Below are positions 14,171 through 61,914 of a DNA stretch of 64,000 nt, piece after piece. Position 1 is the stretch's first letter. Every line of letters begins with the position of its first letter. The position numbers and the translations under genes were made by a program. The notes under the pieces are model-generated. The model was not told the origin of the DNA. It did not search any database and saw only the letters and a list, made by a program, of their open reading frames with translations. Location: positions 18,440 to 82,439 of the forward strand of contig RWJK01001651.1 in assembly GCA_004335835.1 (NCBI GenBank), given 5' to 3'. This DNA is from Scenedesmus sp. ARA3 (Eukaryota > Chlorophyta > Chlorophyceae > Sphaeropleales > Scenedesmaceae).

Positions 14171-15879
14171 CTACTCCTGCATGAAGTCGCCCTGGGGTGC
14201 GCCCCTGCCCCTGAAGCTGCCACCTGCTGCCGCTGCTGCTGCTGCCTGCTGCGCCTGCCTGCTGACACTGCAGCAGCAACACACATGGCAGTGGCGATGG
14301 CAGCGCAAATTTAAATGTAAGAGGGTGCGCAGTAGCAAAAGGGTGATGCAGCAGGTGTGGCAGAGAATGCTTGCACCCTGGCCGGTGTTGCGGCAACTCA
14401 ATTAGCAGGCTGCACGCCCCACCAACACAGCCCGCAGCACTGCCAGGTACCAGTCTAGACAGCAGTAGCGAGCACTGACGCGTGGCGCTGGCAAGCCCTG
14501 CCTGCAGCAGAACCACATGCGACTGCACGACAACCTGCAGCCAGCCTCGCACTTGATGCCGCTGCTGCGCGCCTTCATATGTGTGCGCGCACAATACTGC
14601 GCTCCCACCACCATGATGCACACAGCAATGAAACAGCCTCGCCGACACAGCCTAAACCACAGCGGCCGCACTCACTTGATGCCGCTGCTGAGGGTCTTAA
14701 AAGTGCCCCGGGGCACTGCGCTCTCCACGACCTCGATGCTTACGACAAGAAGTCAACAGCCTCAGTAAGGCGCAAGCACAGCAACTGCACTCACTTGATG
14801 CCGCTGCTGAGGGTCTTGAAGGTGCCCCGCGGCACTGCGTTCTTCACAACCTCGATGCTCAATGCTGAGAACAACAACAATGACAGCCTCAGTAAAGGAA
14901 ACTGCTGCGGCCGCACTCACTTGATGCCGCTGCTGAGGGTCTTGAAGGTGCCCCGGGGCACTGCGCTCTCCACGACCTCGATGCTCATCTTCTTGTTGTC
15001 CAGGGCCACGTTGTTGTAGCGGTTGAACGCCGCCAGCGCGTCGCTGCGCTTCTCAAACACCACATATGCTGTGCCCATGGAGCGCCCGCTGCAAGCGCAA
15101 AAGAACGTGAGCACAACAATGTCAGCACAACACGAAGTAAGCCATGTGCGAACGGCGGACGGTACGGTGATCATGGGGAGCCCGCTGCAACAAACAAAGA
15201 AACAGGAGGTGGGAGGCAGGCAGCAGGTGTAAGGTCAGCGCAGTGATCTTCTTGTTGTCCAGGGCCACGTCGATGTAGCGGCTGAACGCCGCCAGCGCGT
15301 CGCTGCGCTTCTCAAAGACCACATATGCGGTGCCCATGGAGCGCCCGCTGCAAGTGAGAAGACAGTAAGAAAAACAGCAGCAAGCAGGCGATATGTCAGC
15401 AAGGCACATACAGGCCAGTTTGTCGTAGTGGATGCCGGAGTCCTTGATGGTGCCCACTGTGCTTAGTCACCACAACGCCCTGATACACACACGCGCCAGC
15501 GCACCTCTTGATGTAACACACAAGCCAGAGTCCTTCATGAGGCAGACACCAAGATCTAATGAAAAGAGAAATGCCGACAACAAACTCATCAGCAGTCTCG
15601 CCTCTTATCGTAGTGGATGCCAAAGTCCTTGATGGTGCCCACGCGCATGCCACGCAGTCGCACCGACTCTAGCACAAACACACGCTGGAGTGCTGTGCCC
15701 GCATGTCGAACACAACATTCACAGCATGCTCAGGTAATTGACAACATGAAGCAGCTCATCGCACCTCTTATCGTAGTGGATGCCTGAGTCCTTGATGGTG
15801 CCGACTGTGCCGAACAGCTCCTGGATGTCCTCGTCAGTCACCTTGAAGTCCAGGTTGGAGATGAAGCTGCGAACGTGAC

Positions 15880-15913
<34 letters not shown>

Positions 15914-17666: not shown

Positions 17667-17713
<47 letters not shown>

Positions 17714-18181: not shown

Positions 18182-19155
18182 ATGTCAGACAGCCAGCGCA
18201 ATGGCGGCAGGGCAGGCCGAGACGGTGGCGGCAACAGGGAGGTGCCAGGCAGGGAGCAAGACAGCAGCCGCGGCAGAGACCGCCCACGCACTGCACCGCA
18301 GCAGCAGCAGCAGCAGCAGCAGCGGCCACGCTCGCCACCGCGCAGCAGCAGAGGTGACGACAGAGACAGAGACCACCGCAGGCCGCTGTCACCTGGCAGG
18401 CGCCTGCCGCCGTCCCCCAGGCACCGAGAGCCGTCCCGCGAGCAGCAGCAGCAGCAGCAGCAGCGGCGTCCTGAGTGGGACGAGCGGCAGCAGCGAGGGC
18501 CGCCGTCCCCACACGGGCCGCTGCCGGCCCTGCACAGCTTCCCACGGGACAGGGACAGGGACAGGGATGGCCCGATGGATGGCCCTGGTCGTGTAGGCGG
18601 TGGTAGTTACAGGGACGGTCCTGCTTGGGACCGCAGGGACAGGGACAGGGGCCCAGGGCCGGGGGCTTTTCCTCACAGAGAGCCACCGCGGGACGGCAGA
18701 GATCCTCACAGGGACTACTGGGACAGGGACAGGGACAGGGACAGAGATAGGGACAGGGACAGTGGCGGCTACAGAGGGCCACCAGGTGGCCCCAGGCCCT
18801 TTGCAGACGGCTGGCGCGGCGGTGGTGGTGTCCCGCCGCCTCCCGCTGTAGCGCGAGAGCGCAGCAGCAGCCGCGAGCGCGGCCGGGGGCCGCCACAGCA
18901 GCAGCAGCAGCAGCAGCATGGTGTGAACGCTGGCGTTGAGGGCGGCAATGCGTTTATGCTGCTGGAGCGCTTCTTGAGCAAGCACGAAGCCTTGAGGGTG
19001 AGTGGGCATGCAGCTGCCGCGTGTACACCCATGCTCAACCCTGCTGCTGTTGTCGCTGCTGTGCTGCACACCACAAGCTCACGCACAGGCCACAAGTGCC
19101 CCAAGCCCAGCCAACGAGAACACAGTGCACCTCCAGTACTGATAACATAGTTACC

Positions 19156-19202
<47 letters not shown>

Positions 19203-19285
19203 TTGTTTTTCTCGCAGGCTACCATGGCCCCAAGTGCCAGCCAACGTGCACATGGTGCACCTTCTGTGCTGATAACATTCTCACC

Positions 19286-19343
<58 letters not shown>

Positions 19344-22300
19344 CTGCTGCTGCGCTGCCTATTTGTACACGCGCAGGCCACCATTGCCCCAAGCGCAGCC
19401 AATGTGAACACGGTGCACCTGCAGCGCAACGACGCGCTCGGCTTCATCAACGTGCAGCAGTGGCTGGCGCAGCACCTGCGGCTGGAGCTGCAGCTGCTGG
19501 CAGGCACATATGTGCTAGTGCCTGCGCATGACATCCCGTTGCTTGGTGAGTTGCATAAGAGGTGTGGCTTGCATATTAGTGAGCAGCAGCTGCACACCTA
19601 GGGCGGCAGCTGCAGCTGCTGGCCGGCACATATGCGCTGTGCCCATACATGACATCTCCATGGTTGGTGGGTTAGCACAGAGGTGTAGCTTGCCACACTA
19701 GTCAGCTGCAGCTGCAGTGGCTTGCACAGCACCCAGGGTGTCAGCTGCAGCTGCCGGCAAGCAGATATGTGCGGGTGCCTGCGCACGGCATCGCGCTGCT
19801 TGGTGAGTTGCGGCCGTTACTGCTGCTGCTGCTGCTGCCAGGTGATGGCGGCGATGCGGAGCGTGCAGCGATCCCTCTGCGGGTGCGGCAGGTGGCTGCA
19901 GTGGAGCTGCCGCCAGCAGGCTTGCAGCAGCAGCAGCAGCAGCAGCAGGCTGCTGCGTCGGCGCTGGTGCTGCTGGAGGGTGGCGGGGAGGTGGCTGCTG
20001 GGCGGCTGGTTGAGGCGCCGCTGACAGACATGACGATCGTGCCAGGTCACCAGGTGAGAGAGAGTGAGAGCAAGTGAGAAGGAGTGAGGATGTGTGAGGG
20101 ATTTTGAGAGAGCAAGTGACTCAGAGGGTGGTGGAATTGGAGGCGGCGCTGACAGACATGACGATCGTGCCAGGTCACCAGGTGAGAGTCTGTTGGTCGT
20201 GGTGTCTTATGTCTGCTAATCTCGTGGTGTCCCGTATCTGCTTATAGTAGTGTCCCATGCCTGCTGATCTCGGAGTGTGCTGCTGCATGTGCTGTGCTGC
20301 TGTATGCGCTGCGCGCCTTCTTGCGCGCAGGAGCAGTGCTGCGAGGTGGCTGTGCTGCAGTGCCAACAACCGCTGGCAGATTGGGCAGATGGTGCGGCAA
20401 TGGCTTTATTGGCCCTGCTGTGTGCTTGCTGCTTTCCTTTGCGCGCGCAGGAGCTGTGCTGCGAGCTGGCGTCGCTGCAGTGCGAGCAGATGGTGCCGCT
20501 GCTGACGCTGCAGCAGCTGGCGCACACGGTGTGGCGGCTGCAGCTGTGCACCGACTTGGAGGGCATGATCGCCGCATTTGACAAGGTGAGCTGTTTCCTT
20601 TCTTGATCAGCCAAGCAAAAGTACAAGGCATCTTGGGTTGAACGCTCGCTTCCATGTATGGCGTGTGGCGGCTGCAGCTGGGCACAGACCTGGAGGGCAT
20701 GATCACCGCTGTGACAAGGTCAGCCGTAGTTTTTTCCTTTATTTTTCTACAAGCAATAGTACAAGGCTTCTTGGTTTGGATATTTGCTTCCATGTATGTG
20801 TATGACGTGTGGCGGCTGCAGCTGTGCACCGACTTGAGGGCATGATCGCCGCCTTTGACAAGGTGAGCCACCTCTTGCAAACCGCGCTGGCGGTTGGATG
20901 TTTCTTTCGATGTGCATATATGTCTCAGCACTGCACAGACCTGGAGGGCATATTCACCGCCTTTGACAAGGTGACCCATTTACGCCGCGCTGCGCTGACA
21001 CTTACTGGTGCTGTCTGCTGATGTCTGGTCATGCTGCACATGCCTGCGCTGCGCTGTGCGCTGCTGCCCTGATGGTGCTGCGCTGCTGTTGTAGCATGCT
21101 GCATGTGCCTGCGCTGCGCTGCCTTGCGCTGGCACGTGCCCGTTCTGTTCGCTGCATGTGTCTGCAGCGGCAGCAGCAGGGCCTGCGCAGTATGCGCCTG
21201 GATGCGGACACAGAGCGCAAAGCTGACATACAAATCGCTTCTCTGCTGCTGTTATGCAACATGCCTGCAGGAGCCTAGACGACGCAGCCACGCAGCATAT
21301 GACACCACTGCTGACTGCCCTGCTGCTGACCATGTGGCTATGCTGCTGTGCTGCTGTTGCCTCAAGCCCCTGCAGGAGCAGCAGCATAGCCTGAGTGAGC
21401 TCGGCCTGGAAGCGGACACGCAGCACAAATCAATGCTGCTGACTGCACTGCCGCTGACTGTGCTGCTGTGCTGCTGTTGTTGGCTCATGCCTCTGCAGGA
21501 GCAGCAGAACCTGAGTGAGCTGGGCATGGACGCAGACACGAAAGCCAATGCAGCCGCCAACAGCTACGCGATGATGCGGGCTCGCATCCAGCAGCTGCCA
21601 CAGCCCGCCTTCATCACAGAGGTGAGGCGCGCATTTGCTTTCCTTTCATAACCCAGCTTGGGCTCAGAGCATGTGGCTGCGCACTCCTCATTTTGTGCTA
21701 TTAAATGCCTCGTTCAATGCCGATGTGCTGAAGATATTAATTGCTCGGCTGCCGCTGCAAGTGCTAGCGTTTGTGAAGCAGCAGCGTAGGGGCCTGGAGG
21801 GGCTCCAGCTGCGGCTCATTCTGGTTCTGACCGCCCCATGCACTGCTGGTATTTTTGTGCGCTGCTGCTGCAGGTGCTGGCCTGCCTGAGGAGCTACCTC
21901 ATTAAAAGCTGATGTGCTAACGATTTTGATAACTCTGTTTTGTGTATTGCTGCAGGTGCTGGCGTATGTGGAGCAGAAGCCGAGGGGCCCTGAGGGCCTC
22001 AAGCAGCGGCTGAATTTTGGTAACAACCAATCCATGCGCTGCTGCTATAATTGTGTGTGCGCTGCTGCTGCAGGTACTGGCATATGTGGAGCAGCAGCCT
22101 GGCCGCATCGAGGAGCTATCGCACCAAATGCTTATGTGTTGGTGTTCTCTAATGTTTATATTTGGCTGTATTTGGCTGCTGCTGCAGGTGCTGGCGTATG
22201 TGGAGCAGCAGCCGGGGGGGCCTGAGGGCCTGAAGCAGCGGCTGGAGGCAATGGACGCCACCTGGCAGCAGTACAGGCAGGACATGATGGCAGGCAAGCT

Positions 22301-22370: not shown

Positions 22371-22405
<35 letters not shown>

Positions 22406-24041: not shown

Positions 24042-24083
<42 letters not shown>

Positions 24084-26572
24084 CAAAGATTCTGGCGGCC
24101 GAGACAAGGCTGCTGCTGGCAGCGGCGGCGGCAGCGTCAGCAGCAGGGATAAGGAGAAGGACAGGGACCGGGATAAAGCCCACAACAAAGATGGCAAGGG
24201 AACTGTCAAGCAAGTGCATGTCAGCAGGCCCCCACCGCCTGAGGTAGCAGACATCTTGCAAAGGCTGCTGCCCCAAGGCCCGCACAGCGCTGAGAAGGGC
24301 AGCAGGCAAGCCTTAGAGCGCCTCCGCAGCCGCAGCCGCAGCCGCAGCCGCAGCCGCAGCCGCAGCGCAGAGCGCCGCAGGAGCAAGCGCAGCCGGGGGA
24401 TCTCACCTCCTCCTGTTGCACGCTCGCCGCGCGACGCGGCAGCAGCAGCAGCAGCGGCGGCGGCGGCTGGGCCGGGTTTCAGGGTTGGCAGCCCTGCTGC
24501 GCCGCGAGTGGACTTGGAGGAGGCCCGGCGGCGCTTTGCTGGGCGGCTGGAGGGCGCTGACGCGCTGTTTGGGCAGGTGTCAGCGGAGGCTGAAACACGG
24601 GAGTGGCTGCACAGGTGGGCGTGCTGCTGTGCATGTGACTGCAGAACCCGTGGTGTGCACCATCAGGTGGATGTTGTCTCCTGGCTGCATGGCCTGCTGC
24701 GCCTGGAGCGCGCTTGTTGCATTGTTGTTACATCATGAACATCCACACTTCCAGCGTTCACTCTACAGCCCTGGTGCTGTGTGTGCTGTGCAGTGTGCAT
24801 GCTGCCTGCAGGCTGGCTGACCTAATGCACAGGAAGCGCATTCACAGCAATGACACATCAGCAACAATCATCGCTTGCAGCTTTCACTCTTCAACCCTGG
24901 TGCTGTGTGTGCTGCGTGCTGCCTGCAGGCTGGCTGACATGCTGCGCAGGGAGCGCACGCACAGCGTCCACCTGGGCATGATTGTCCGCCACATGCCCAT
25001 ACCCATGGAGGTGAGCGCAAGAGTGTTTGATGCAATGCTAATGGCAGAAACATTGCATTAGCTGTGGTTTGCTTGCAGCTGGGTGTCATTGTCCGCCACC
25101 TGCCGATACTTATGGAGGTGAGGGCAAGTTTTTTGATTGGTTGTTTGTGCAGACAAAAAGCATTGTGCTTTGTGTACACCTGGGCGTCATTGTGCCTGCG
25201 CTGCCTGTGTTCGCCTGATCCCATTGCCCATATCACACAAATGCAACAGGTGTACAAGCGCTGGGGCGGCGTGAACAGTTTCCTGTCCCTGCACCTCGCG
25301 CTGACCTACCAGCCCGCCACCAAGCTGGCGGGCCTGCTGGAGGGCGTTGACCTTACATATGTATGTTTCCAACTTGCGTTTGTTTCCACGCCACCTGGTG
25401 TGCAGGCACTGGCACGGCATCTTTTCTCTTGCTTCCTGGCGCTGACGCATGCTCAACACTGCCTGTGCCTGCCTGCTTTGAACATGTACTTGCTCAAATT
25501 TTAATGCTCGCAGGTGTACAAGCGCTGGGGCGGCGTGAACAGGTTCGTGTCGCTGCACCCCGCGCTGACCTACTAGCCCGCTACCAAGCTGGTGGCCCTG
25601 TGTTGTATATGGGACACCTCATGCCCATGCCTGCGTCCTGCTGCTCACAGGTGCACCGGCGCTGGCGCAGCATCTGCTCTTTCCTCTTGCTGCAGCACAC
25701 ATTGCTAAATGCTGAGGGCTGCCTGTGTCTGCCGTGCTTTTGCTATGTACAAACAGGTGTACAAGCGCTGGGGCGGCGTGAACGCCTTCCTGTCGCTGCA
25801 CCCCGCACTCACCTACCAGCCTGCCACCAAGAAGGTGGGCCTGCTAAAAGGCATTGACCTGGATGCAGTGCCCATGCTGCCACCCCCAAGCCGCGAGCAG
25901 CAGCAGCAGCAGCAGCAGCAGCAGTGGCGGGAGCCGCCTGGCCGGCGCGGTGAGTCGCCGGGTAGTGGCCCGGGCAGGTTTAGGCACGAGGGGCCGCCAC
26001 CTCCGCATTGGGAGAGAGGCGGGCCACTGTCCCCGCAGCAGCAGCAGCAGCGGCAGCAGGGGCGCTTTGGTGGGGGCTTCCCTGGCAGCGGCGGCAGCAG
26101 CAGGGGCAGGAGCCGGAGCCCTGGCAGCGGCCGGCCTGCAGCAGCAGCAGCAGTGATACCGGCGCTGCAGCTGGCGCAAGAAGACCCAGCAGCTAAGGAG
26201 CTGAGGGAGCAGGTGCTTGCGTTTGCGAGCTCGCTGCGGCAGCAGCTGGCCGCAAACCTTCCGGAGCATCAGTTAGAGCTTGCGGACGCTTATGCGCTGC
26301 TGCCGCTGCAGCTGCGCGATAAAGTAGCTCCCGGCTCGCCAGTCGACATGCAGAAGTTCCTGGAAGATAACATTGGAGGTGTTAAAGTGGTGCGGAAGGA
26401 CGGCCGCATGCTGGTGCAGGGTTTGGAGCCGGGCCAAAACCGCGAGCCGCAGCCGCCGCGGCAGTGTGCGTACTGGGATGCTGGAAGCTGGCTGGGGTGC
26501 TTCAAAGCAGCGCGCTGCAACTTCAGGCACGCGCTGGGTCCGTCAGACAAAGACCTCAAGATGTGGATCTAG
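18182..26572 (+). CDS. Gln- and Arg-Ser-rich nuclear-type protein with C-terminal CCCH-like finger
   Basis: Nine exons (18182-18997, 19377-19545, 19842-20053, 20451-20585, 21499-21621, 22188-23566, 23841-24614, 24929-25010, 25757-26572) join in phase to 1,501 residues. The N-terminal 270 residues are Arg/Asp/Pro-rich with poly-Gln and RDRDRD runs. A folded-looking region (about 285-485) contains GFINVQQWLAQHL and LTDMTIVPGHQ. A Gln/Gly/Ala-rich middle follows, then an RS repeat (about 1100-1120). Next come a conserved-looking segment with MIVRHMPIPME and VYKRWGGVNAFLSLHPALTY, and a C-terminal region ending in C1467-x10-C1478-x5-C1484-x3-H1488, a CCCH-like spacing. RS and RD repeats suggest a role in splicing or mRNA processing, but I do not recognise the family. 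Most introns hold ghost exon copies. TGTAA follows 83 bp after the stop. Confidence 0.78.
19088..19430 (+). repeat. Ghost copies of the 5' end of exon 2, separated by CTG runs
   Basis: The sequence after the acceptor of exon 2 (encoding ATIAPSAANVNTVHL, from 19377) is preceded by two copies at about 19091-19150 and 19215-19278. Each copy is followed by GATAACAT and a long CTG run (19157-19199, 19287-19337). The duplicated unit, about 130-160 bp, therefore includes the CTG tract and acceptor. Confidence 0.85.
19480..19815 (+). repeat. Ghost copies of the 3' end of exon 2
   Basis: The exon end encoding LQLLAGTYVLVPAHDIPLL (to 19545) recurs downstream at about 19602-19672 and 19737-19810. The last copy retains a GTGAGT donor. 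Intron sequence after the donor is copied too, with a unit of about 115-135 bp. Confidence 0.85.
20010..20185 (+). repeat. Ghost copy of the 3' end of exon 3
   Basis: The segment encoding LTDMTIVPGHQ with its GTGAGAG donor (to 20053) is repeated almost exactly at about 20140-20187. Confidence 0.9.
20320..20985 (+). repeat. Ghost copies of both ends of exon 4
   Basis: Upstream, the acceptor and first codons of exon 4 are copied at about 20320-20395. Downstream, the end encoding VWRLQLCTDLEGMIAAFDK recurs at about 20660-20718, 20807-20865 and 20928-20975. Each copy keeps a GTGAGN-like or GT donor; the second has lost one base (CTTGAGG for CTTGGAGG). Confidence 0.88.
21165..21560 (+). repeat. 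Ghost copies of the 5' end of exon 5
   Basis: The acceptor and first part of exon 5 (EQQNLSELGMDADTK, from 21499) are preceded by copies at about 21370-21430 (EQQHSLSELGLEADTQ) and 21165-21225 (QRQQQGLRSMRLDADTE). Both keep CTGCAG- or CAG-type acceptors. Confidence 0.85.
21755..22250 (+). repeat. Ghost copies of the 5' end of exon 6
   Basis: Before the true exon start at 22188 (VLAYVEQQPGGPEGLKQRL) there are three clear copies at about 21757-21830, 21950-22020 and 22070-22130, and a decayed one near 21867-21900. Each follows a (CTG)n-CAG type acceptor. Confidence 0.9.
24790..25200 (+). repeat. Ghost copies of both ends of exon 8
   Basis: The 5' end (RLADMLRRERTHS) is copied upstream at about 24803-24870. 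The 3' end (LGMIVRHMPIPME plus GTGAGC) is copied downstream at 25075-25120 with both an acceptor and a donor, and again, decayed, near 25165-25215. The 25079-25116 copy could in principle be spliced as a miniature exon. Confidence 0.85.
25240..25860 (+). repeat. Ghost copies of the 5' end of the terminal exon
   Basis: VYKRWGGVN-type sequence after an acceptor occurs at 25250-25362, 25514-25580 and, as the true exon, from 25757. The middle copy has an in-frame TAG after ALTY, so it cannot replace the true exon. Confidence 0.92.
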
Positions 26573-26830
26573 TGAGGTTTGCGTTGGGGCTCAGAGAGAG
26601 TGAATTACTTTTGAGTTGTGGAGCATTGGGGCAGCTGTCCAGGATCTCTGTAGCTGTAAAGGCATGGAACTTAGGACCCGGGCAGCTGACTGGGGTGTGT
26701 CAAAGTCCGCAGTCAGCCTGCGTTGCATGTTCAGGCATGCGCTGGGGCCGACTGACGCGCAGCTGAAGATGTGGATCTAGTGATGATGGAGCAGTGGTTG
26801 CAGGTTAGGCTCAAGGAGGGAGCTGCTAGC
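26500..26830 (+). repeat. Ghost copy of the gene's 3' end beyond its stop codon
   Basis: The last coding bases (RHALGPSDKDLKMWI and stop, 26525-26572) plus about 50 bp of trailer are copied at about 26690-26830. The copy again includes AAGATGTGGATCTAG, but its upstream frame is lost. Confidence 0.85.
26655..26659 (+). terminator. TGTAA polyadenylation signal of the Arg-Ser-rich gene
   Basis: TGTAA on the coding strand, 83 bp after the stop at 26572 and before the duplicated 3' end. Confidence 0.45.
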
Positions 26831-28298
26831 ACGGTGTGCAGGACGTAGTGTGGGACTGTAAAGATGGACAGTCTAGCAATGGTCCCAGGCTTGTTGCACT
26901 GCAACAGCTGAGCTGCATGTACATGCACTTGGCAGGGGTGTGGGATCAGGATGTTCACCCTGGCTCGACCGCAAAGCTTCGGGTCTTGTGCGGAGCTGTG
27001 CAGGCCTGCCTAGGCAGGACAGCTCCCGTTGTGGACCATCAGCATTCACTCTGGTTTAGGGACAATCAGGTTTACCTTGTGAGGTTGCGCGTTTTGTGGG
27101 TAGCTGTGTGCAGGATGTGTGCCAGTGGGGATGTACAGGGATGGTGTGTTTACTATGAAGGGCTCATGTTGCTGAGTTGTCTCGGGCGCTTGGCAGTGGT
27201 GCAAAAAGTTTTTGGGACCAGACATGAAGCATGCTGGGCCACAAGTCTGCTGCGGCAGCAGGTGTTCAAGATACTGTGCTTGTTGAGGATGCCGCATTGT
27301 TAGCAGTGCTGGTCGACGCAATATGTTGCATTGTGCTTGTGCTTGTAATGAATGCATTCGGCAACTTTTTCTTATCTGGTCTACCACTGGTAGATGCAGA
27401 TGATCTGCATCCCTACAGTCACAACGGCAGCGCAGGTCACGCGACTGTGTGTGAGAGACTCTCTCTGAGAGGTTGTGAATTGCAACGCTTGACAATATTA
27501 CCTTCCTTGCAGCCTGTTCCTTGACTAATATTTGCAAGCAGTATCAAGACACCGCATGAAGGGTGTCATGTCCAGGGTTTGTGTCGCCTGTGGACTGTCA
27601 TCAAGAGCGTACCGTTTCGATGAAGCTTAATACACATAAACTAGGAAATATTCACGCGTAAATCACAAGCTGGCACCGGCTGTAACCAGTGAAGAAGGTT
27701 TTCAGCATTGCAGTACTGTACTGCTCTCTTTGATCGTTCTGTGGTTGTTGGATTGTTCAAAATCCCAAGCCATCTTTATAGAAAACCAATTGCAAGCGAA
27801 TGAATGGGTGTATGCGCCCTCACAAGAGCCAAGACAGTACACCAGACATGCAGCTGTGGCTAACACAGTGTCATACCAGCATACTTGGGGGGCCTTACCT
27901 CTTACACGTTACTTTGAGATCTTACGATTCGTTTCGACTTAAGCGTCAGCTACGTACATGAACACTGAAATCACCCACCACTGGTTGTCATCGCCGGACT
28001 GCACTGTCAGCTGCACTTCTGCAACAGCGCCGGTTGAGTTGATACGCCGTTACATTGTTGACCAGTAAACTTTGCGGAATCCTCACTGTCTCAGCTAGGG
28101 ACATGCCCATTATCGCCGGTAGTGTCGGGATCATTTGAATCGTTTCGCCTCCGCGACAGATCGGCACGCAGCCTGAGTCACGTGGCATAATTGGTTACAA
28201 AACAGTTAGAATCAATGCCTTAGCTGATATCTTGCCAGAATTGGCAGTCAAACTCTTTGGCGGGAGCAGCAGCACCATCAAGCACCCCGAGGAGGTGC
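26831..28298. other. Intergenic region with no supported gene
   Basis: Between the Arg-Ser-rich gene (with its duplicated 3' end) and the glycosyltransferase. No conserved frame is seen. The part from about 27530 to 28250 is more AT-rich and should hold the glycosyltransferase promoter. Loose similarity among 26940-27010, 27040-27140 and 26573-26700 suggests further decayed copies of the preceding gene's trailer. Confidence 0.5.
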
Positions 28299-29172
28299 AT
28301 GGCTTGCTGCCCAGCAGCGTTGGCTGCTTGTGTGCTCCTGCTGCTAGCATTCAACAAAATATTATGCCATGCTTCATCAAGCGTGGACAGTGGCAGCTCA
28401 TCCAGCAGCCAGACAGGCAGCAGCAGCAGCGGCAGCAGCAGCAGCAGCAGCACAGGCGGGCCAAGCCAGCTTGCAAGAGCTGCTTATAAAGGCAGGCAGC
28501 AAGGAAGCAGTGTCAGCAGGCGGATGCTCGCTGACGCTTCAAGTGAGCCCTGCTATTTGTTTGTCCTGCAGCGGTGCCGGCCTTGTGGTGTGTTTGCAGC
28601 TGCTCACCTGCCACCTGGGAACTGCCAGTTTGCTGCGGCAGCACTCCTGCTGGCCTATACTTCAGGGTGACCAGAACACCAGAACTAGTGCTGGCTGGGG
28701 ATTTGTTTAACTGGTTTATCAACCCCTTAGAGTCAGCAGCACAGCCAGCTGCTACTGCCACGCGCCATGCACCATGCTGCATTCCCAGTCGTGCTGATTA
28801 CGTCTGACAAAAGATAACCTGCTGCCGCGCCTGCTGATCATGCATGTTCCAAGCAGCACCACAACTGCCAGGTCCACAGCAGCCCCTTGCACAAGCTGCA
28901 GCAGACGCAGCGCCGCGAAAGAGCCGAGTCACGTGCACAGGCTCCACCTTCAGCAAGCAGTCCTGTATGTTTGAAAACGTGTGCCTGCAGCCCAGCAGCA
29001 GCAAAGAGCAGCACTTGACCGCCTGGCTGATGGGCGCCGAGAAGAGCCAGGAAGCAAACCAACAGCACGCAGCGCTGCTGCAGCTACACTTGCAGCACGC
29101 CCTACAGGAGGAATACAGCGCAGTGCAGGTCAAGGTAGCCACGCTATCTGCTGCTGGCTCAGAAGGTGCTCC

Positions 29173-29210
<38 letters not shown>

Positions 29211-30686
29211 CTAATGCGAACCTGCCAGCTGTCAGCAGCAGGAGAAGGAGCAGGAGCCGCAGCATCGGCGCTGCTGCCACCCTCAGCAGCTTCCTCCTCC
29301 TCCTCCGCAGCAGCAGCAGCAGCAGCAGCAGCAACGCAGTGGAGCTGCAGGCTGACGCGGCCTTAACGCGTCTGCTTTCGCCATGGATCCTTGTTTGACA
29401 ATGTTGTGGCGCACTTCACGCCACAACCAGAACAGCTTTGGCCACTGTGAGGCCTTGCCTTGACCAGGTTATATTCTCTCATGGCTTAATGAGGCTTTGG
29501 CTCCCCAAACAAGCGGCTGCATGGCCGGGTGGCGCGCAGCCACACCAGTAGGTGTGGGGTGACGTGCTGTGGTTGAAGCACATCATACGCTCGGCAGCTG
29601 GCAGGCAGCTGCCCTGCAGCGCTAATGCTTGTGTCATGCTTCTATCAGGCTAGGCTGGACTGTCGCTTCATTCCCAGAGGCAACCCTGGCTGACACTCGC
29701 TGCTTTGTCATGTGCTGTGTCGCGCGCTGTCACCCTGCGCTGCATGCAGCACTCTTCAACGAGGCCCAATTTTTATGAAGCTACCTTGCTGCCGCACTTG
29801 CAGAGCCAATAGCTTGCTGCCAAGCACATGTTGCAAGCGTCTGGTTACCCCATGCTGTTACTGTGCTTTGCTGCAGCACTTGTCAACGAGGCCAATGTGG
29901 TTGTGAGGCTAGGTTGCCCTTGCGCTTGCAGGGCTGATAAGTTAAGCCAATAGTTGCTGACAAAACGCGTTGTATGCCTGCTGACAAAAAAATGTGTTGT
30001 TCGCGTGCCCCATGCTGCCGCCCTGCGCTGCATGCAGCACTTGTCAACAAGGCCTATCACACTGTGACGCTATCTTGCTGCTACACTTACATAGCCACCA
30101 CCTTGCTATCAAAACCGTGCTGTATGCCTCTGTTTTCTGTCCTATGCTGCCGCCCTGCGCTCGGTGCAGCACTCGTCAACGAGGCCTTCCCCATGTTCCT
30201 GGTCCTGCAGAACCACTTCCTGCAGCAGCAGCAGCAGCAGCAGCAGCGGCGGCGGCAGCAGCGGCTGCAGCTGCTTGCAACATCCACACTGGAGCCAGTG
30301 CTGCGCAGCGTGGTCCGTAACACATTAACAAATGACACGCAGCTGCTGTCTCAGCGGCTTGCAGGAATTGCAGCTGCAGGCAAGGCTGGCATCTGCTTCC
30401 GGTGGCTGCTGTTGGGCGATGGCGGCTACCACGTGAGCTTGTTGCTTCTATGTTGTCTGTTGATCGATTCGCTTGGCTGTCACTGCGCAGCACCCGTACA
30501 AATTTTAATGACAGCTGTCCAAAGTGCTGGCTGCTGCTGCAAACCACCTTGTCTGCTCCTGGTGGCACAGGCAGCCAGCTGCGCCCCGCTTGCCAGTATC
30601 TGGCAGCGGCATGCTGCTCAGTACGGCAATGCATCCAGCTTCTCTGGCAACTGCTGCATTCACTGACATTTCGTTGTATCAACATG

Positions 30687-30742
<56 letters not shown>

Positions 30743-31863
30743 AGGCGGCCAGTTATGCCTCACTGGCCAACAGCAAGCAGCGGCATGCTGCTCAGTACAG
30801 CGTTGAGCCCAGCTTCTTCAGTAGTGCCAAGTGGTGGGCCTTCAGGCAGCACGTGATGCAGGTGCGCAGGCTGGGAGTGAGGCATATGCTGTGCATGCAG
30901 GACTGTGTGCTGTGCATGCAGGACTGTGTGCTGTTGACACAGCAGCAGCTTGCAGCTGCAGGGTGCCTGCCTGTCTCTTTGGCTGGCCAGTCTCTATGTA
31001 GATGAGTGTGAGGACTTCCGGCCTTTGCAGCAGTGCTCGTTGGTGGACCTTCAGGCGGCACGTGATGCAGGTGAGCGGGTAAAGATGAGGGGGGGAGGGG
31101 GAGAACTTTGGGTGTGAGGAGAGGGTTGCGGCTGTTGGCGCCCCCATCTGCAGTCCTCCGCAACAGCGCCGGCTACCTCGCTTCGCTCGGCATGGAGGAC
31201 GCTTAAATAGTTATCTTACACCGGCTGCATGTGCAGTTGTCTGCTTGCGTGCAGGAATGCCCTTATTCGCTGCGCCGACACCACTGCTGCTACACGTCTG
31301 CTGCCTCTGCTGCTGTTGCTGCTGCCTGCAGTTGCATGGTGTGTCAGAGGCGACCCCTGCTGCCGCTGGCACCAGACCGCTTGTGGTGTTGAATGACAAG
31401 CGGCACGGGCCTACAGGGCAAGAGGATAGGCGCATGATCCTTGACATAGACAGTGTGGCAGCAAACCTGTCAGCTGCATACCCAGGCTGCGAGGTGAGGT
31501 GTGAATTGTGCAGTACTGGTGGTGGATATGTGTCCCGCAGGAGTGCATTGAGTTGTTGTCATTGCCCAATGAGCCTGTTATATTTCGGCTGCAGCAACGT
31601 GGCAGCCAACCTGTCAGCAGCGTACCCAGGCTGTGAGGTGAGGATTGGGCAGAGCTGATGCTTGTTTGATGGTCTGCTGTGATGAATGGTGGTCTGCCCT
31701 CGTTGTGGCCTTTTGCGGGCCCAATACACATGTCAGCCAACCTGTCAGCCGCACACCAGGCACCTGCTTTTCAGCTGCGGCTGCGGCAAGGCAACCGTTA
31801 CTTGGCACTTGCTAGCCAAATCGACACCAATGGCGCCGCTTAAAACGTGTCATGCACCTGCTG

Positions 31864-31903
<40 letters not shown>

Positions 31904-32316
31904 TGCAGGTGCGTGCGGTGCGGCTGTGTGACCTGTCATGGCTGGAGCAGCTGCGCCTGCTGTCACGCACCTCTGTGTTCATCACCACGCAAGGCAGCAG
32001 CGCTTTCCGGCTCGTGTTTTTACCTCTGGGAAGCACAGCACTCATCGTGGGAGGCCCCGAAACAGGAAGTTCTGCCTGGAAGAACTTCCACGAGCTGGAC
32101 CGCTGGTTCCCGCTGAGCTACGTGCAGTTTTCACGCTACGAAGTTCGCACTGGGAACAAAGAGGAGTATGAAGGGAAGGTGGTGCCAGGTATGTGGCAGC
32201 CACCGTGGACGGAGCCGATTGCGCGGCGCGGGTGGTGGCTGTACAATGCGAATGTGAGGGTGGGTTTGGCGCGGCTTCAGGCTGTGCTGGATTATGTGCT
32301 GCCGCAATACTACTGA
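28299..32316 (+). CDS. Type II membrane GT61/EOGT-like glycosyltransferase
   Basis: The ATG at 28299 starts a short tail and a hydrophobic anchor (AALAACVLLLLAF), then a Ser/Gln stem, as in Golgi type II enzymes. Likely exons: 28299 to about 28541, about 28571-28800, about 28850-29390, about 30165-30431, 30745-30861, one near 31150-31205, 31332-31493, and 31909-32316. TFSKQSCMFENVC resembles the early Cys block of GT61 proteins. KWWAFRQHV, LDIDSVAANLSAAYPG, LCDLSWLEQLRLL and SSAFRLVFLPLGS follow the order of the DUF563/EOGT core. The usual HGAG turn reads TQGSS here. GT61 enzymes transfer GlcNAc, xylose or arabinose to proteins or wall glycans in the secretory pathway; the substrate here is unknown. 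The join between 30861 and 31332 is unresolved because the best frame near 31153-31206 ends in stops. Three introns and the 3' flank hold ghost copies. Confidence 0.68.
29735..30205 (+). repeat. Ghost copies of the 5' end of a glycosyltransferase exon
   Basis: Sequence encoding PALxAALVNEA after a GCAG acceptor occurs at about 29735-29775, 29868-29905, 30018-30055 and finally 30150-30195, where the exon continues (AFPMFLVLQNHF). Spacing is about 130-150 bp. Confidence 0.88.
30560..31075 (+). repeat. Ghost copies of both ends of the KWWAFRQHV exon
   Basis: The 5' end is copied upstream at about 30566-30645 (AASCAPLA then a QRHAAQYGN-like segment). The 3' end (SAKWWAFRQHVMQ plus donor, to 30861) is copied downstream at about 31027-31075 with a GTGAGC donor. 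Confidence 0.85.
30688..30741 (+). repeat. (CTG)18 tract just before a 3' splice site
   Basis: Eighteen CTG units end in the acceptor CAG at 30742-30744 of the glycosyltransferase exon starting at 30745. Confidence 0.92.
31450..31770 (+). repeat. Ghost copies of the 3' end of the VAANLSAAYPGCE exon
   Basis: The exon end (to 31493, GTGAGG donor) is copied at about 31598-31645 with its donor, and a decayed partial copy lies at about 31728-31765. Confidence 0.88.
31869..31901 (+). repeat. (CTG)11 tract just before the last 3' splice site
   Basis: CTG units lie directly before the acceptor at 31907-31908 of the glycosyltransferase terminal exon. Confidence 0.9.
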
Positions 32317-32590
32317 GCAGGGTGCCAGTGATGTCTGGTCTTTTGCACAACCCCGCTTCCATGTGCACATGCCATCAGCACACAAAACTGTAGAGTTTTC
32401 CATGTGCACATGCAAGAATCAAGACATAGTGTCCTATTGCATGCTGTAGGCGTGTGTACGTGTGCAGCATCAACTGCTGATGTAGGTAGCTGGTGCAGTG
32501 TGTGCGCGCGTGGTGGCTGTACAATGCGAATGTGAGGATGGGGCTGGCGCGGCTTCAGAGAGTGCTCGACAATGTTGAGTGCAGAGTTAC
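32240..32590 (+). repeat. Ghost copy of the glycosyltransferase 3' end beyond its stop codon
   Basis: The terminal coding segment RGWWLYNANVRVGLARLQ (about 32228-32282) is copied at 32506-32575, about 190 bp past the stop, with two small changes and a diverged end. Confidence 0.9.
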
Positions 32591-41000: not shown

Positions 41001-43127
41001 CCATTGCTTGTGGTTTAATTGCAGACTGCGTGAGGTTCGACCACACACAGCCAAGCCATGTAGTTGAGCCACAATTGAGCCAGCAGCAGCCCTCATCGGC
41101 TTACCCTGGTGCGCGTGCCAGCTCCGTGCTTGCTGCTGGTGTGCAGGGCCAGGCGGTAGCTGCCAGCGCCAGCAAGCCATGCTGCAGGCGGCGGCTCACC
41201 AAGCCAGGCAGCAGCAGCAGCAGCAGCACTGTCTTCATCAAGCTGCTGCTCGCCGTCTGTCTCAAGGTCCACACTGCCGCTGCTGCAGCAGCTGCCGCCG
41301 TTGTCACTGCCGCTGACGCAATCTGCGCTATCCTCGGCATCACAGCCAGCTGCAATGCTCCATGCGTTACCGCCGCCGCCTGCTGCTGCCTCAGACTGCT
41401 GCAGCGCGCTAGGCTGGTTCAGCAGCTTACTCTCTGTGCCATCGCCGCTGCTGTGGCTGCCGCCCTGCAGTCCATTCGCCTGGAGTGCTCCACCCAGACT
41501 CCTGCTGCTGCTGTTGCTGCTAAGCTTCCCAGTCAGTGGCTGTGCTGATACTGCTGGTACTGCCGTAGCTGCAGCTGGTACTGCCTGCAGCACGCCAGCT
41601 GCCGGCTCGCTGTAAGCAGCGCCTTGCTGCGCAAAGGTGCCCTGACTGTTGTGTGCTGCAGCTGCTGCCAGCTCTTCTTCATAGTCATCTCCATCTTCTG
41701 ATCCACAGTAGTCATCATAGGGATCATACGGCTCGTAGCCAGCGCCTGCAGTGGGATGGTGTGCAAAAACAGCCACGCAAGGTAAAAAGAGATTGAGCAA
41801 GGATACAGCCTGCATTTATCATCATAGGGATCATATGGCTCATAGCCAGCACCTGCAGTGAGGCAGGTGTGGTGGGTGCAGGCACAGCCACACGACGTCA
41901 GCCCTGCCCTGCTGCTGAAGCAACAGCGGCATCATCTGAATCAACTGCGCTGCAGAGTGTGTGCTGCACTACGTTGCACTGCAGCACACACAACAACTCA
42001 CGCTACTGCTGCTGCTGCTGTGCGCACTGCTCACCTCCCGTCATGCGCATCACTGGCAGCTCGTCATCGCTGCCAAATGACGCCCTGCCGTCATCCAGGT
42101 AGCCGCCGCCACCATCATTATCATCACCATCACCACCTCCCCCTTGGCCCTTCACTGCTCACCTCCTGTCATGCGCATCACCGGCAGCTCATCATCGCTG
42201 CCAAATGACGTCCTGCCGTCATCCAGGTAGCCGCCACCACCATCATTATCACCATCATCATTGGCCCCCTCACTACTTAGCAGCCAGCTGGCACCTCCAT
42301 CCAGCTCATGCGCCAGCTCCTGCAGCCCCTGCTGCTGCTGCTGCTGCTGCTGCTGACCTGGCTGCCGCCACTGCTGCTGCTGCTGCACTGGCCGAGGGTT
42401 GCCTGCGAGGGATAGCTCCTCAGCGCCCGCAGCAGCAGGGTTGGTGTACTCCACAAATGCAGAGCGCTCCACTTCCTCCTCCTCAGCCTCACTCGCGCAG
42501 TAGCTGCTGCTGATCGCGCTGCTGGCGTCGCTGCTGCTGTCACAAGGCACCAAGCTGCCCACCAGCTGCTGCGCCCCTGCTGCTGCTGCTGCAGGTGGAT
42601 CTCGCGCAGCAGCTGCTGCAGCAGCAGCTGGCTGCCATGCTTTGTCTGTTACATTGGACTCCAGCAGGTCACTGTCTGCCTCGGAACCTTCCAGATCAAG
42701 TGGTGCTCCAGTTGACAGCTCAGCAAAGCTTAACCCTGGGCTCAACGGCGCCACACCTGGCTGCTGCTGCTGCTGCCAGCCCAGGTGTGCTGTTGCCCCT
42801 GACAGATCACCATGCACTCCAGCCTGAGTGTGTAGTGGGCTCACAGGGGAGGACCAGGCTGAAGATTGGTTAAAGGCAATTGCTGCATTGTCAGAGTAGG
42901 CATAGCCAGCATAGCTGCCAGCTGCTGGCGAGCCGGGCGCACTGCACTGAAGTTCACAGTCCACATCACTGTGCGCAGCGCTATGAAGTTCACTGTGAGG
43001 GTCGTCACTGCCAAAGTCGCTGCTGCCGTTGCTTGCTGCTGCTTCCGCGGCACCAAATGCGCCCTGGATGGCTGCTACCGCCTGCAGCTTGAGCAAAGGC
43101 GGCTCGGGACTGCTGTGCCTGCTCGCG

Positions 43128-56894: not shown

Positions 56895-59800
56895 TTAGTC
56901 CACGTCGATCACGCGGCTCAGCTTCTGCACCCTGTTGAGCAGCAGGTCGCCGCGCTTGATGGCCTCCAGGTACAGCGCGTTCTTGGCATCAGGCCTGCAG
57001 GACAGCCAAAACAACTCATGAAGAAACCCATACAAAAAGCAGCCTGCGTTTGTCGTGATCAGCGCTTGACGGCCTCCAGGTACAGCGCCAGCAGGAGCGC
57101 CAGGCATCAGGAAAGTCACATCAAGAAACAGCAGCCAGCACATGATCAGCAGCGACTAGCATGCCTCTGAAGAAATGTCATGATGACCAATGCTAGTGCT
57201 CTATGACACCGCCGCACCTCTTGGTATCTATGGTGCCTGCCGCCTTGTCGATCTTGGCGCTGACGTGTAGTTCAGATGATAACAACAGTCATGACACCAG
57301 ATAATCTGCAAACCGCACCTCTTGGTCTCGATGATGCCTGCCACCTTGTCGATTTTGGCGCTGATGCGGCCAGCACAGATGAAGTCCGCCACCTGCGCAG
57401 CAGCAGCACAACATGTACTGTGACAGAACAAGCTGCGTAGCAAGCACAGCGTAGGAAGCCAGCACGATGCAACCAGCTGCGCCAGCATGAGTGCTGATGC
57501 ACGTCACACGTGTGCATCAGTTGGTGCCACAGGCGCTGTCAGCAGCCGGCACTGTCCACATGAAGTGGCACCACGAGGTGCGCCACCAACTGTTTGTTGC
57601 GTAACGCGTACAGCAGCCGCAGCAGCAGCAGCAGCGCAAAGCCGGCACCATATGAGACTGGTGTACACAATGATACACGTCATAAATGGTCACTAGGCTC
57701 ACCTCAGTGTCCAGGAAGGGCAGGCCCACATCGAATGCTGTGGCCATGGACTCCAGCGTGACGCTCTTGTAGCTCTCCAGGAACTGCGGCAAGATATGAC
57801 AAGACGGTAGCAGCAGGAGGGCAGCATACATGCAACAGCAGATCAGCAGCAGTGCGGGTGCATTTACAGAGCGGCATGACAGCCTTGTAGATATCTGGAA
57901 CTGCAGCATGGAAGGCAGCAAGAGCAGTCAGTACAGTGCATCATCAGCATTACACGCATGCTACCAGCTAAGCCAAAGGCAATGACAAGGGCGGACGCAG
58001 TCGTTCAAGGCAAGGAAAGGCAAGGCCAAAGCACTGACAAGGCAGGAGGCAGCACACGGTAGAATGCACAATTTGCTTTGTGACAGATTAGGCTGAAGTA
58101 GCATCTCAAAGAAGGCTCACCTGGTTGTAGGCCACCAGGCGCACCTCGCGCATGTAGTAGCGCACGTGCGGGTGCGTGTACATGTCGGCGCGGATGATGT
58201 CAATCACGCCCAGCAGCGACTGCGCCAACAGCAGCAGCAGCAGCAGCAGCAGGAGCAGCAGCAGCAGCGGTCAATGGGATAACAGGGGCCTGCTAGAGAG
58301 CACTCCTTACACAGACCGGGCTTCAAGGGAGCAGCAGCCAGCATGCAGCTGACCCTCACCACTAACAGCGCACCCTGCCCAAGTTCACACCTATGTTCAC
58401 AAAAGACTTCATGTGCTCACCCGAAAGAACTCCCTGTAGTTGCAGTCGTGCAGCGCGTTGAGGCAGGACTCCAGCGCCGGCACGTGCCCGATAACGCTGC
58501 GGATCTCTGGGCTGTCCACCACACGCTCCTTGAGCGCCACGCGGTCCAGGCTGACCAAGCTAGCCGCCACTGCGTAGCTCACGCAGCTTGTGTAGGTGAA
58601 CAGCTCCGACCTGCAAGAATTGTGGTAAAACGGTCACAAAAAGGGCAGTGTGTTGGTGCCAATTAATCCAGGCTGACCAGGCTTGCTGCATAGCTCACAC
58701 AGCTCGTGTAGGTGAACAGCTCCGACCTGCGGGAGCGGATACATAGAGCAGGTCACTTGAGCACAGACAATTTGTGGAGTGTGTCAGCGCCATGCAGCCC
58801 AGGCTGCGGCTACGTAGCTCACGCACGAAGTGTAGCTGCAGAGCTTCAGGCTGCAGAAAAGGCTAGTGATACAGGTGAGCAAAAGGCAACTGCTGGATCT
58901 CATGAAAGGCATCGTGAGTTCACAGCGGCAACCAGAGTGTGCCCTTCAGCATTCTATCCAGTGCCGGACAACTCCAACCCCAGACAATGAGGGCTGCAGA
59001 CACTTGCTGTGCTCACGTGGTGAAGGTCTGGATGGAGTCCAGCAGCAGCTCAGCGGCCCGCTTGAAGTCCCGGCTGTACATGGCAGCAACGCCCTCATAC
59101 ACCTGGCGGCAGCAGCAGCAGCAGCAGTAGTAGGATACTTAGACAAAGTAGTAACACAGGCAGGAGCGGCAGCGGGCTGATCCAGCATCCAAGTAGACCT
59201 TGATGCTTAGTCCTTGATGCTTGCTTTCAGCAACCACGAAACACCGATACGCCGGTTGGCAGCTTGCAGCTACGCGACAAGGAGTAGCATGCTGGGTGCT
59301 GAGCCAACAGGCCATACCTTGAGCTTGTTCTTGTGCTCCCAGTCGCCTCCCGCCTCGCAGATGGTCTTGGCATGCGCCAGCAGCTTCTTCACGCCGTGCC
59401 AGTCCTGGTACAGGATGGCCAGCCTGCAGCAGCACGATGATTGCATGCAAGCATGAGCGTAAACATTATATACACTGCAATGAAATGTGTGAACAGGCGC
59501 ACAGCAGCTGCGGTCCATCAATCCACACACGCCAAGGCCACGCAACCTGTATATGCACAGACAGCAATTTCTACCATTCTGCGCGCAGGAGACAACAGAA
59601 CAGCCGTCGCTGTGTCACCACTCAACCACGCACCGTATCTGCGCGAAGACCATGTCTGCCTTGGCGGCGCCACTGGCCGTCTTGCTTTCTGTGTCGCTGT
59701 AGGCTGCCGCTGTACTGACACAATGTCTACCTTGCCAAGAACTCACAACATCAACAGGAAAACCATATGCAAGGCTGAGTACACGACGGAGCGTGCGGAA

Positions 59801-61914
59801 GGAGCATCACCCGCTCACAGAAACCAAGGACAAGGAAAGGTAAGCCAGCACTCAACCAACAGCCACGCACCGTATCTGCGCGAAGACCATGTCTGCCTTA
59901 GCGGCGCCACTGGCAGTCTTGCTTTCTGTGTCGCTGTAGGCTGCTGCTGCGCCCTCGCGGTCCCCGATGCTGCCCAGGAACGCAGCCTTGGCGGCAAGTG
60001 CGTCGCGCACCTCGGTCTCGCCAAGGTTCTCTTCAGCATCCTGCAGAAAGATGATGACAGACAAAAAGGATCAGGCTTGAAAAGTGTGGCTATACCCAGC
60101 AAGTGCGTTGTGCGCCTGCGTTTCACCGAGGTTCTCTTCAGCATCCTGCAGGCATGACACAACCAGACAGACACAGACGCAAGGTTTGAACAAGGCCGCC
60201 GTAGCAGCGAGTGCGTCGCGCACCTCCGTCTCACCGAGGTTTTCCTCAGCATCCTGCAGTTGCCAAAGACAGACAGCAACACACATAAGGCTTGAGGAAC
60301 GCAGCCTTGGCGGCAAGTGCATCGCGCACCTCGGTCTTACCAAGGTTCTCCTCAGCATCCTGCAGCAAGCACACAACCAGAGAGACACAGACGCAAGGTT
60401 TGGACAAGGCCACCTTAGCGACAAGCGCGTCACGCACTGCAAATTCACACTGAAGTTCTCTTCAGCATCCTGCAGCAGTGACACGCGCAGACAGTAACAG
60501 ACACAAGGAGGCCCTGTCACACACTTGCTGCTGCATCGATGCTGCTGCTGCTGCTTGCACAAACGTCTGTGCACCAGCAGCACCTGCACGCCTGCCAGGG
60601 CAACGCGAGCCCGCAATGGCCCACACATTGCAGCCCCAACGCCACTGCTTGACTGTGTGTCAAACTAAACAAAGGGACAGCAACCACCTTTTGGAGCATG
60701 CCGTCCATTGATCTGCGGTGCATTTGAGGCGCACCTAGACTAATGAGGCTAATTCTCCCAGGTGCTTTGCGTTGCTGGCTTGGCGCTGACGTTAACAATT
60801 GTTGGTGTTTCCGATTGCTCCACTTGCTAGAGCATCCAACCCGCTATGCATGCAGCTTGACTTCGGCTTGCAGCTCTTGCATCTGCTTTGCATTGCTGGC
60901 CTGCACCTCCTGCAAGCCTGTCAGGCGCAAGTGCGCCCCCCGCCTCCGCCATTGCCCTATACAACTGCCGTCTTGCGCGCTGCGCATGAACTCCGCTGCA
61001 TCGGCTGCGCCCCTGCTAGACCATGTGCCAAACGTCATCAAAATGAGGTGGAATCCACACACCTCCCACACACTATCCACACACCATGCAAAGAGCCATG
61101 CATGTCCTTTGCAGTGCACACACCTTGATCTTTGCTGCAAGCTCCCCTAGCTGCTTTGCGTTGCTGGCCTGCATCTCCTGCAGCTTGCCCTGCTGTTGCA
61201 CTAAGTGTCAAACCAAGAAGCATCAAGCAAACATGATGCGAAATGGTTCTACTATGACATGCATGTGCAGCACACCTTGATCTTTGCTGCCAGCTCCTCC
61301 AGCTGCTTTGCATTGCTGGCCTGCATCTCCTGCAGCTTGCCCTGCTGCAGCTCCCAGCCCAGCTCCCCGCATAAGTGCTCGTAGTAAGGGGCCAGGCCTG
61401 CAGGACAAATGCAAATATGCACAAAAAGATGATGTTGTACAAGATTTTGTTGATGGCGTGAGTTGCAGGAACAGCAACACGAGGAAGGTGCAGCCCTGCT
61501 GCCCCAGAGCAGGCGATGCTGCTGCTTGCTGGGGTTGGTACAGCCAGCAGTCAAGACAAATCTGGCAAGAGGCTTGACGTTGAATATTAAAATACAATTG
61601 TGCTGAGATCACGAACATTGAGCCTGTGAGCTATGCCCAAACGCTTTTGAAAATACTAGTGCACCACAGAAGAGCAGCGCACACCTTTGCTGAAGATGGT
61701 TTGTAGGATCTGCGCCTGCAGCTTCGCTTTATCGACTCCAGCTATATCTGTCGACTTGAACAGGAAGACCTGCAAGGGTCCTGGCAGTTAGTACAGCTGC
61801 ACGGGATGCACAGCTAAAAGCCATCAGCAGTACTAGCTGCATGCTATCCCAACCCGGCACCTGCTGCGCTAGCTCAAGCCGAAAATCTTGCTTCTCTGAT
61901 TCGTTTTCTGTCAT
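56895..61914 (-). CDS. RPN7: 26S proteasome regulatory lid subunit RPN7 (PSMD6)
   Basis: Eleven exons (61861-61914, 61685-61769, 61276-61397, 59871-60040, 59318-59423, 59017-59102, 58421-58610, 58121-58219, 57703-57783, 57319-57392, 56895-56994) join in phase to 388 residues, the usual RPN7 length. Landmarks in order: [64 protein letters not shown], the PCI region with [40 protein letters not shown], and the closing [19 protein letters not shown]7 is one of the six PCI-domain subunits of the lid; it helps hold the lid to the base and supports deubiquitination of substrates. At least ten introns or intron halves here carry ghost exon ends, yet the full-length frame is intact. Confidence 0.95.
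56940..57370 (-). repeat. Ghost copies at the last two RPN7 exons
   Basis: Upstream of the terminal exon, a partial copy of its ALYLEA region lies at 57066-57105. Downstream of the exon ending at 57319, a copy of [15 protein letters not shown] with its GTGCGG donor lies at about 57212-57265. Confidence 0.85.
58540..58870 (-). repeat. Ghost copies of the 5' end of the RPN7 exon starting at 58610
   Basis: The segment [20 protein letters not shown] with its acceptor is copied upstream at about 58666-58730 and, more decayed, at 58795-58860. Confidence 0.88.
59629..60480 (-). repeat. Ghost copies of both ends of the central RPN7 exon
   Basis: The true exon is 59871-60040. Its 5' end ([19 protein letters not shown] after CTGCAG) recurs upstream at about 60107-60149, 60203-60258, 60292-60361 and 60410-60474. 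Its 3' end ([20 protein letters not shown] through the GTGCGT donor) recurs downstream at about 59629-59712. Confidence 0.93.
60850..61370 (-). repeat. Ghost copies of the 3' end of RPN7 exon 3
   Basis: [20 protein letters not shown] with its GTGTGC donor (true end 61276) is copied downstream at about 61130-61197 and, more diverged, at 60860-60925. Confidence 0.9.

Follow-up and report, generated by a model that had tools for sequence, protein, structure and literature searches.

Short tandem copies of exon ends recur in the genome of Scenedesmus sp. ARA3, and the more diverged copies carry an excess of synonymous differences

The window, i.e., the whole stretch of 64,000 nucleotides from Scenedesmus sp. 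ARA3 that was analysed (contig C1255, 18440-82439, in an assembly of 87.3 Mb and 1567 contigs), includes two minus-strand genes, RPN7 (58.4-61.4 kb) and ALY (14.5-17 kb), in which complete exons are accompanied by truncated copies of their own ends, here called ghosts (Table 1). Four RPN7 exons match the family profile PF10602 in order, and the partial protein encoded by the complete exons only aligns without gaps over 220 of 224 residues to 8amz (E 8.3e-61), the best solved relative, which is named PCI domain-containing protein and is followed by chains named RPN7 or subunit 6. Another gene with RPN7-family matches, perhaps COP9 subunit 1, lies at G000:C1024:15571-17862. The RRM match of ALY falls below the curated cut-off (E 0.004), the GT61 match falls below its own cut-off (E 0.0069), and in a WD40 scan none of the matches listed among the 150 scored of 459 candidates lay on the window's contig. 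The original prediction had named the WD40, ALY, Arg-Ser-rich, GT61-like, coiled-coil/PLAT, and RPN7 genes as carriers of the copies; RPN7 is solid as a carrier, ALY and GT61 are identified by sub-threshold matches, and the repeat arrays are not special to these six genes, as 133 of them were encountered in a sample of the genome.

Table 1. Complete exons, ghosts, and repeat arrays in the window (spacings in bp; S, synonymous and N, nonsynonymous differences from the complete exon)
Positions	Strand	Feature	Remarks
14550..14861	-	ALY, three ghosts of the 3' end of exon 14921-15088, the third decayed	spacing about 123
14921..15088	-	ALY, complete exon (GRSMGTAYVVF...)	
15246..15376	-	ALY, ghost of the 5' end of exon 14921-15088, with acceptor	
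15420..15642	-	ALY, two ghosts of the 3' end of exon 15765-15868	
15765..15868	-	ALY, complete exon (SFISNLDF...)	
19080..22244	.	seven arrays, smallest spacings 107-129	almost without gene models
24969..33088	.	nine arrays	without gene models; sub-threshold GT61 match at 31816-32313 (+)
34300..37036	-	three arrays (34300-35142, 35701-35908, 36212-37036)	
39305..39639	-	array with an intron-only label, spacing 110	
41712..42231	-	acceptor-type (spacing 107) and donor-type (spacing 128) arrays	
56952..57364	-	two arrays, spacings 110 and 101	close to predicted exons
58421..58610	-	RPN7, complete exon (SELFTYTS...)	
58667..58730	-	RPN7, ghost of the 5' end of exon 58421-58610	S 5, N 0, with 6 bases in gaps
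59017..59102	-	RPN7, complete exon	no ghost recognised
59318..59423	-	RPN7, complete exon	no ghost recognised
59623..59712	-	RPN7, ghost of the 3' end of exon 59871-60040, including donor	S 3, N 0
59871..60040	-	RPN7, complete exon	family and structure-relative match
60041..60508	-	RPN7, four ghosts of the 5' end of exon 59871-60040	spacing about 105-108
60853..60914	-	RPN7, second, more diverged ghost of the 3' end of exon 61276-61397	
61110..61195	-	RPN7, ghost of the 3' end of exon 61276-61397	93% identical, 150 bp off
61276..61397	-	RPN7, complete exon (LAPYYEHL...)	

Each of the four ghosts at 60041-60508 consists of an intron tail ending in CTGCAG and an exon head starting with GATGCTGA, and one junction is common to all RPN7 5' ghosts. 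In two ghosts of exon 59871-60040 the exon head contains a donor-like GGTGAG or GGTAAG, where the true exon reads GGCGAG. The ALY gene holds ghosts of both the 5' and the 3' kind. By translation, 14 ghosts in RPN7 and ALY could be aligned with codon-level similarity to the 5' or 3' end of the complete exon; the protein-family scans did not show the ghosts. When compared with the assembly, the RPN7 stretch matches itself alone, with no second diverged copy, and the ALY stretch matches itself and short partial sequences only.

The sample comprised the window and 27 further readable 10-kb pieces (28 loci, 334 kb in total). Piece L012 (G000:C805:1-10000), which is N throughout, was left out of the counts, and L027, which contains dense short repeats, was left out of the gene-model and border-placement counts (132 arrays) and kept in one array-density figure. 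Short-period repeats were masked prior to the repeat search, and copies less than 1500 bp apart at E of at most 1e-4 were taken as close pairs; the apparent unrelatedness of some spacers is partly an effect of the masking. Exon models were obtained with a gene finder trained on this genome's own sequence, which recovers the RPN7 exons and most ALY exons; its faults are that genes are merged, that 17-34 kb of the window is nearly unmodelled, and that some ghosts are called exons. The splice signals learnt from the sequence were (C/A)AG/GTGAG for donors and CTGCAG/G for acceptors (the last slash marking the border); together with the CAG-rich composition they would suit a green alga. Finally, a set of 76 ghost-true pairs (49 donor-type and 27 acceptor-type) was picked as truncated copies, at an identity of at least 75%, with one pair per border and the complete exon defined by the gene models.

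Close repeats in the window are almost exclusively direct, with 67 direct pairs versus 1 inverted pair in the whole window and 66 versus 0 within 14,545-61,370, which confirms the predicted short tandem copies of splice-site-spanning segments in this region. Among the 32 arrays of the window 31 fall in this interval, the smallest spacing is 101-150 bp in 22 of these 31, and the copies in pairs differ by about 2-33%. The arrays are unevenly spread, with 25 in 14.5-43 kb and 6 in 56.9-61.4 kb. Array-poor stretches lie beside the one with 25, with none in 43-56.9 kb and one in 0-14.5 kb; long predicted exons may be the reason for the absence in 43-56.9 kb. The geometry supports tandem duplication of segments straddling a border, and all 14 hand-aligned ghosts in RPN7 and ALY obey the rule that copies of an exon's 5' end lie upstream and copies of its 3' end downstream of the complete exon. 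This rule had been predicted to hold in every case; by the gene models, among pair-border rows with a complete exon in all loci but L027, 125 of 159 obey it and 34 break it, the latter number being probably overstated because the gene models call some ghosts exons. As tandem duplication across a border gives such geometry, the rule is no evidence of targeting.

Operation of the process across this genome is supported by the sampled pieces. The 133 arrays in 28 loci correspond to about 4 per 10 kb and span 13.8% of bases, with 0 to 11 arrays in each sampled piece other than the window and smallest spacings that are mostly 80-140 bp; a ghost of at least 75% identity was found on 76 of about 796 predicted borders in the sample. 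Two paralogs, at L028 1489-1625 (reverse orientation) and L030 380-700, which we take to be kinases by motif, both have ghosts of one and the same exon end; breakpoints and spacings differ between the two, and these duplications therefore look independent. Locus L031 contains about five tandem copies at 2534-3130 (spacing near 115-121, up to 90% alike), and the end of a different exon has two short matches there.

The tests of the originally predicted border targeting point in different directions: an excess was detected in the sets defined by conserved blocks, but not for donors in arrays with full units. A predicted border is present in 67 of 132 arrays, compared with 45.7 (sd 4.9) under random placement in the same locus, whereas exon-only arrays (6 versus 11.4, sd 3.3), intron-only arrays (26 versus 35.7, sd 4.7), and arrays labelled intergenic (25 versus 28.1) fall below random; 20-33.1 kb of the window, a stretch in which the models failed, accounts for 14 of these 25. 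Strong donors are found in 47 of 132 arrays (one copy per array; 24.4 at random, sd 3.9) and in 18 of 39 first copies of the most alike pairs (5.0 at random, sd 2.0), and the motif AGGTGAG occurs in 21 of 133 arrays (10.2 expected, sd 2.4). Acceptors showed no excess by site score (15 versus 12.7 expected), nor did the acceptor motif TGCAGG in the 133 arrays (49 versus 60.7 expected); CTGCAG is very common in this genome. Contiguous whole units exist in 34 arrays, while the spacers of other pairs do not align. In these full-unit arrays, detected with Tandem Repeats Finder, gene-model borders occur in 24, against a random mean of 18.1, and no excess of strong donors was found (17 of 34 versus 16.1, sd 2.6); the power of this test is low, since random placement alone gives a rate of about one half.

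In donor-type pairs the aligned block mostly covers 20-100 exon bases and often only 5-20 intron bases. Moreover, in 26 pairs with an exon identity of at least 0.93 the adjoining 40 intron bases have an average identity of 0.65, versus 0.50 when shuffled. The border excess comes at least in part from exon-derived sequence staying recognisable.

Analysis of the 76 ghost-true pairs revealed that differences at codon positions 1, 2, and 3 occur at rates of 0.064, 0.060, and 0.176, with 226 synonymous (S) and 164 nonsynonymous (N) changes and 6 stops. The ratio of position 3 to positions 1 and 2 is 2.84 (2.39-3.38), whereas a copy unused in one lineage should give at most 1.65. Frame-shifted readings reverse the pattern (76 S and 301 N, and 70 S and 304 N), so the signal follows the reading frame. 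The 14 hand-checked ghosts of RPN7 and ALY contain 51 S and 33 N and no stop, and RPN7 ghost g2 contains 10 S and 1 N. Furthermore, 5 to 6 stop codons were found in ghosts versus 11.7 expected, and gaps amount to 24 per 395 substitutions in the exon part versus 60 per 226 in noncoding pairs.

A copy unused since its birth beside a constrained exon is expected to show an N/S of at least 1.42, a value derived from 19 noncoding pairs with 17-34.2 kb excluded from the noncoding spectrum. Classing by intron identity covered 75 of the 76 rows (one row having no measurable intron stretch) and gave N/S values of 1.40 at an identity of at least 0.75 (n=13; 20 S and 28 N), 1.06 at 0.62-0.75 (n=13), 0.76 at 0.55-0.62 (n=16), and 0.53 below 0.55 (n=33), the first and last classes being different (Fisher p 0.0045). 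Where introns can still be aligned, ghosts thus behave like dead sequence. Where they cannot, 64 N and 121 S were counted, against 108.6 N expected, and for much of their history constraint at the protein level seems to have acted on these still recognisable ghosts. This is an anomaly, because such a synonymous excess should be absent from a copy that has gone unused in one lineage ever since it arose. It can be argued that, with one coding copy at a time per lineage, intragenomic conversion or role-swapping should not push N/S below the expectation either. In simulations, intron identities of 0.55 or lower were usual only once the pairwise neutral divergence had reached at least about 0.4-0.6, and the third-position rate of 0.206 in this class is lower than the divergence simulated for such introns; fast intron change and spacers that were never homologous are the candidates offered for this mismatch. 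With paralogs as outgroup for four pairs of one gene, 12 changes were assigned to the ghost side and 3 to the true side, with 3 undecided, a skew as expected for dead copies; all 15 decided changes derive from three pairs, two of which have a common true exon.

At the sequence level, the predicted near-identical competing splice sites are borne out. The mean donor score is 6.57 for true sites and 6.03 for ghosts, and of the 45 ghosts with a preserved GT, 27 score the same as the true site. In the 76 pairs donors are aligned to donors and acceptors to acceptors (one of the two underlying comparisons covering pairs of at least 82% identity). No sign of selective removal of decoys was seen: 45 of 49 donor-type ghosts (40.5 expected from divergence) and 25 of 27 acceptor-type ghosts (21.9 expected) retain their splice dinucleotide, a share that leans upward because presence of the site was part of how the blocks were selected. 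For 16 of the 76 ghosts, and for 7 of the 34 in the old class, the mRNA could be entered by an open in-frame route; ghosts show no preference for lengths divisible by three, and most acceptor-type ghosts are without a usable donor. According to the gene models, both border kinds are present in 25 of 132 arrays, and whole exons are possible in some. Ghosts starting with AG were considered as hidden cassette exons and rejected, since among pairs of at least 82% identity an AG occurs near the block start in 36 of 46 donor-type ghosts, compared with 35.3 expected. The simplest inference from the DNA is that splice sites would be recognised across exons and a ghost passed over for want of a partner site; judged by anatomy, the first of the duplicated donors and the last of the duplicated acceptors would be the ones chosen.

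Minisatellites are tandem arrays able to change copy number; unlike these, the arrays described here have longer units, few copies, and locus-specific sequences, and they include coding borders. Like tandem exon duplication and mutually exclusive exons, they involve exon sequence repeated in tandem inside one gene, but the ghosts analysed, having been picked as truncated copies, are exon ends that each possess one splice site. One sequence in many unrelated introns, as for introner-like elements, was not found for the three stretches checked (RPN7, ALY, and L028), the L028 stretch matching itself, its paralogs, and short repeat-like sequences in the assembly. Small tandem duplications in rice were reportedly studied by Vaughn and Bennetzen in 2014. 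Among the titles listed by searches of one open literature library, none describes an alga whose exon ends are duplicated genome-wide, and the closest case there was that of a potato RdRp gene. In this gene a tandem genomic duplication across an intron-exon boundary copied the acceptor and created an additional intron, the splicing of which was demonstrated with RNA reads, and the gene also has an 83-bp duplication inside an intron (PMC4974935). The segments duplicated in Scenedesmus likewise cross the intron-exon border and include the acceptor; in contrast to the single potato gene, they recur across the sampled genome, and most ghosts are without an open in-frame route. An intron as long as the unit, as expected for a new intron, was not found among the 76 pairs, in which donors are aligned to donors and acceptors to acceptors. 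According to a second report, end joining of breaks with overhangs gives small tandem duplications, and studies of human and plant insertions are cited there for a break-repair origin (PMC8355091). The copies in Scenedesmus resemble these in being direct, adjacent, and short; those insertions, in contrast, are below 100 bp and follow induced breaks, and for the Scenedesmus copies a repair origin is a proposal.

The explanation that we favour, with somewhat better than even confidence, is that small tandem duplications, whose units measure roughly 80-170 bp and which show little regard for splice sites, form a high background in this genome. It draws on the direct orientation, the unit size, the sample-wide spread, the lack of donor excess in full-unit arrays, and the neutral pattern where introns align. 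The duplications would arise by break repair in which staggered ends are filled in, and those wholly within exons would mostly be purged by selection. Duplications at borders would be tolerated, as a ghost usually has one of the exon's two splice sites and an exon-pairing spliceosome would skip it. Border ghosts would seem over-represented because their exon-derived half is still recognisable after the intron half has decayed; together, the loss of exon-only duplications and the longer survival of the exon half can give the direction of the border excess. Counted against this account are the border excess, the deficit of intron-only arrays, the N/S of 0.53, and the same-border ghosts in two paralogs, whose different breakpoints could point to hot borders. 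The synonymous excess in ghosts with unalignable introns is left unexplained by it.

A candidate source of that excess is unequal recombination between well diverged alleles, which would reshuffle ghost and true exon ends in a very variable species, such that until recently many ghost ends would have served a function in some other individual. Such inter-allelic exchange is rather unlikely in our judgement, although it can add to the background of duplications; it fits the codon-structured differences, the 64 N versus 121 S of the unalignable-intron class, and the composition of RPN7 ghost g2. It also fits the shortage of near-identical arrays, with none of 44 array rows with units of at least 70 bp reaching 95% identity, whereas 37 of 281 do among those with units of 10-44 (overlap between rows being possible), but this shortage fits assembly collapse equally well. 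Likewise, in the window and L002-L029 without L012 and L027, none of 51 rows with units of at least 45 bp reaches 98%, and 31 of 281 with units of 10-44 do; the missing near-identical long-unit arrays are likely a matter of assembly collapse. Exchange would moreover require a synonymous diversity near 0.13 by our own estimate, and the single assembly match of the RPN7 stretch, the merely short additional matches of ALY, and the common junction of the RPN7 5' ghosts, unlike single captures, argue against it. A doubtful extension of the idea is that in a highly diverse species that recombines ghost ends form a living reservoir, in which exon ends would shuttle between coding and ghost positions by unequal allelic exchange and introns would store recently functional variants that can return.

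A process that copies about 100-150 bp around splice sites appears improbable, despite the border and donor excess in conserved-block sets and the same border being hit in two paralogs, given the missing donor excess in full-unit arrays, the missing acceptor excess by site score, the 26 intron-only and 25 intergenic labels among the 132 arrays (14 of the 25 intergenic ones where models failed), and a positional rule that is geometric. It is still less probable that the older ghosts are used as alternative or extra exons under selection. Codon-structured divergence, intact splice sites, and the scarcity of stops and gaps would agree with such use, but acceptor-type ghosts share the signal (27 N among 73 old-class changes) and seldom have a donor, an open in-frame route exists for 7 of 34 old ghosts, no preference for lengths divisible by three exists, and RPN7 aligns to its relatives without insertion. 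An assembly artefact is hardly credible even for a fragmentary assembly of 1567 contigs for 87 Mb, as false duplication would give near-identical copies and those in the window are about 2-33% apart with codon-structured changes.

If the rate of 76 in about 796 borders holds genome-wide, the background of small tandem duplications favoured here would provide a natural experiment on splicing that ignores near-perfect decoys. A concrete anomaly lies in the more diverged copies, with their excess of synonymous changes.
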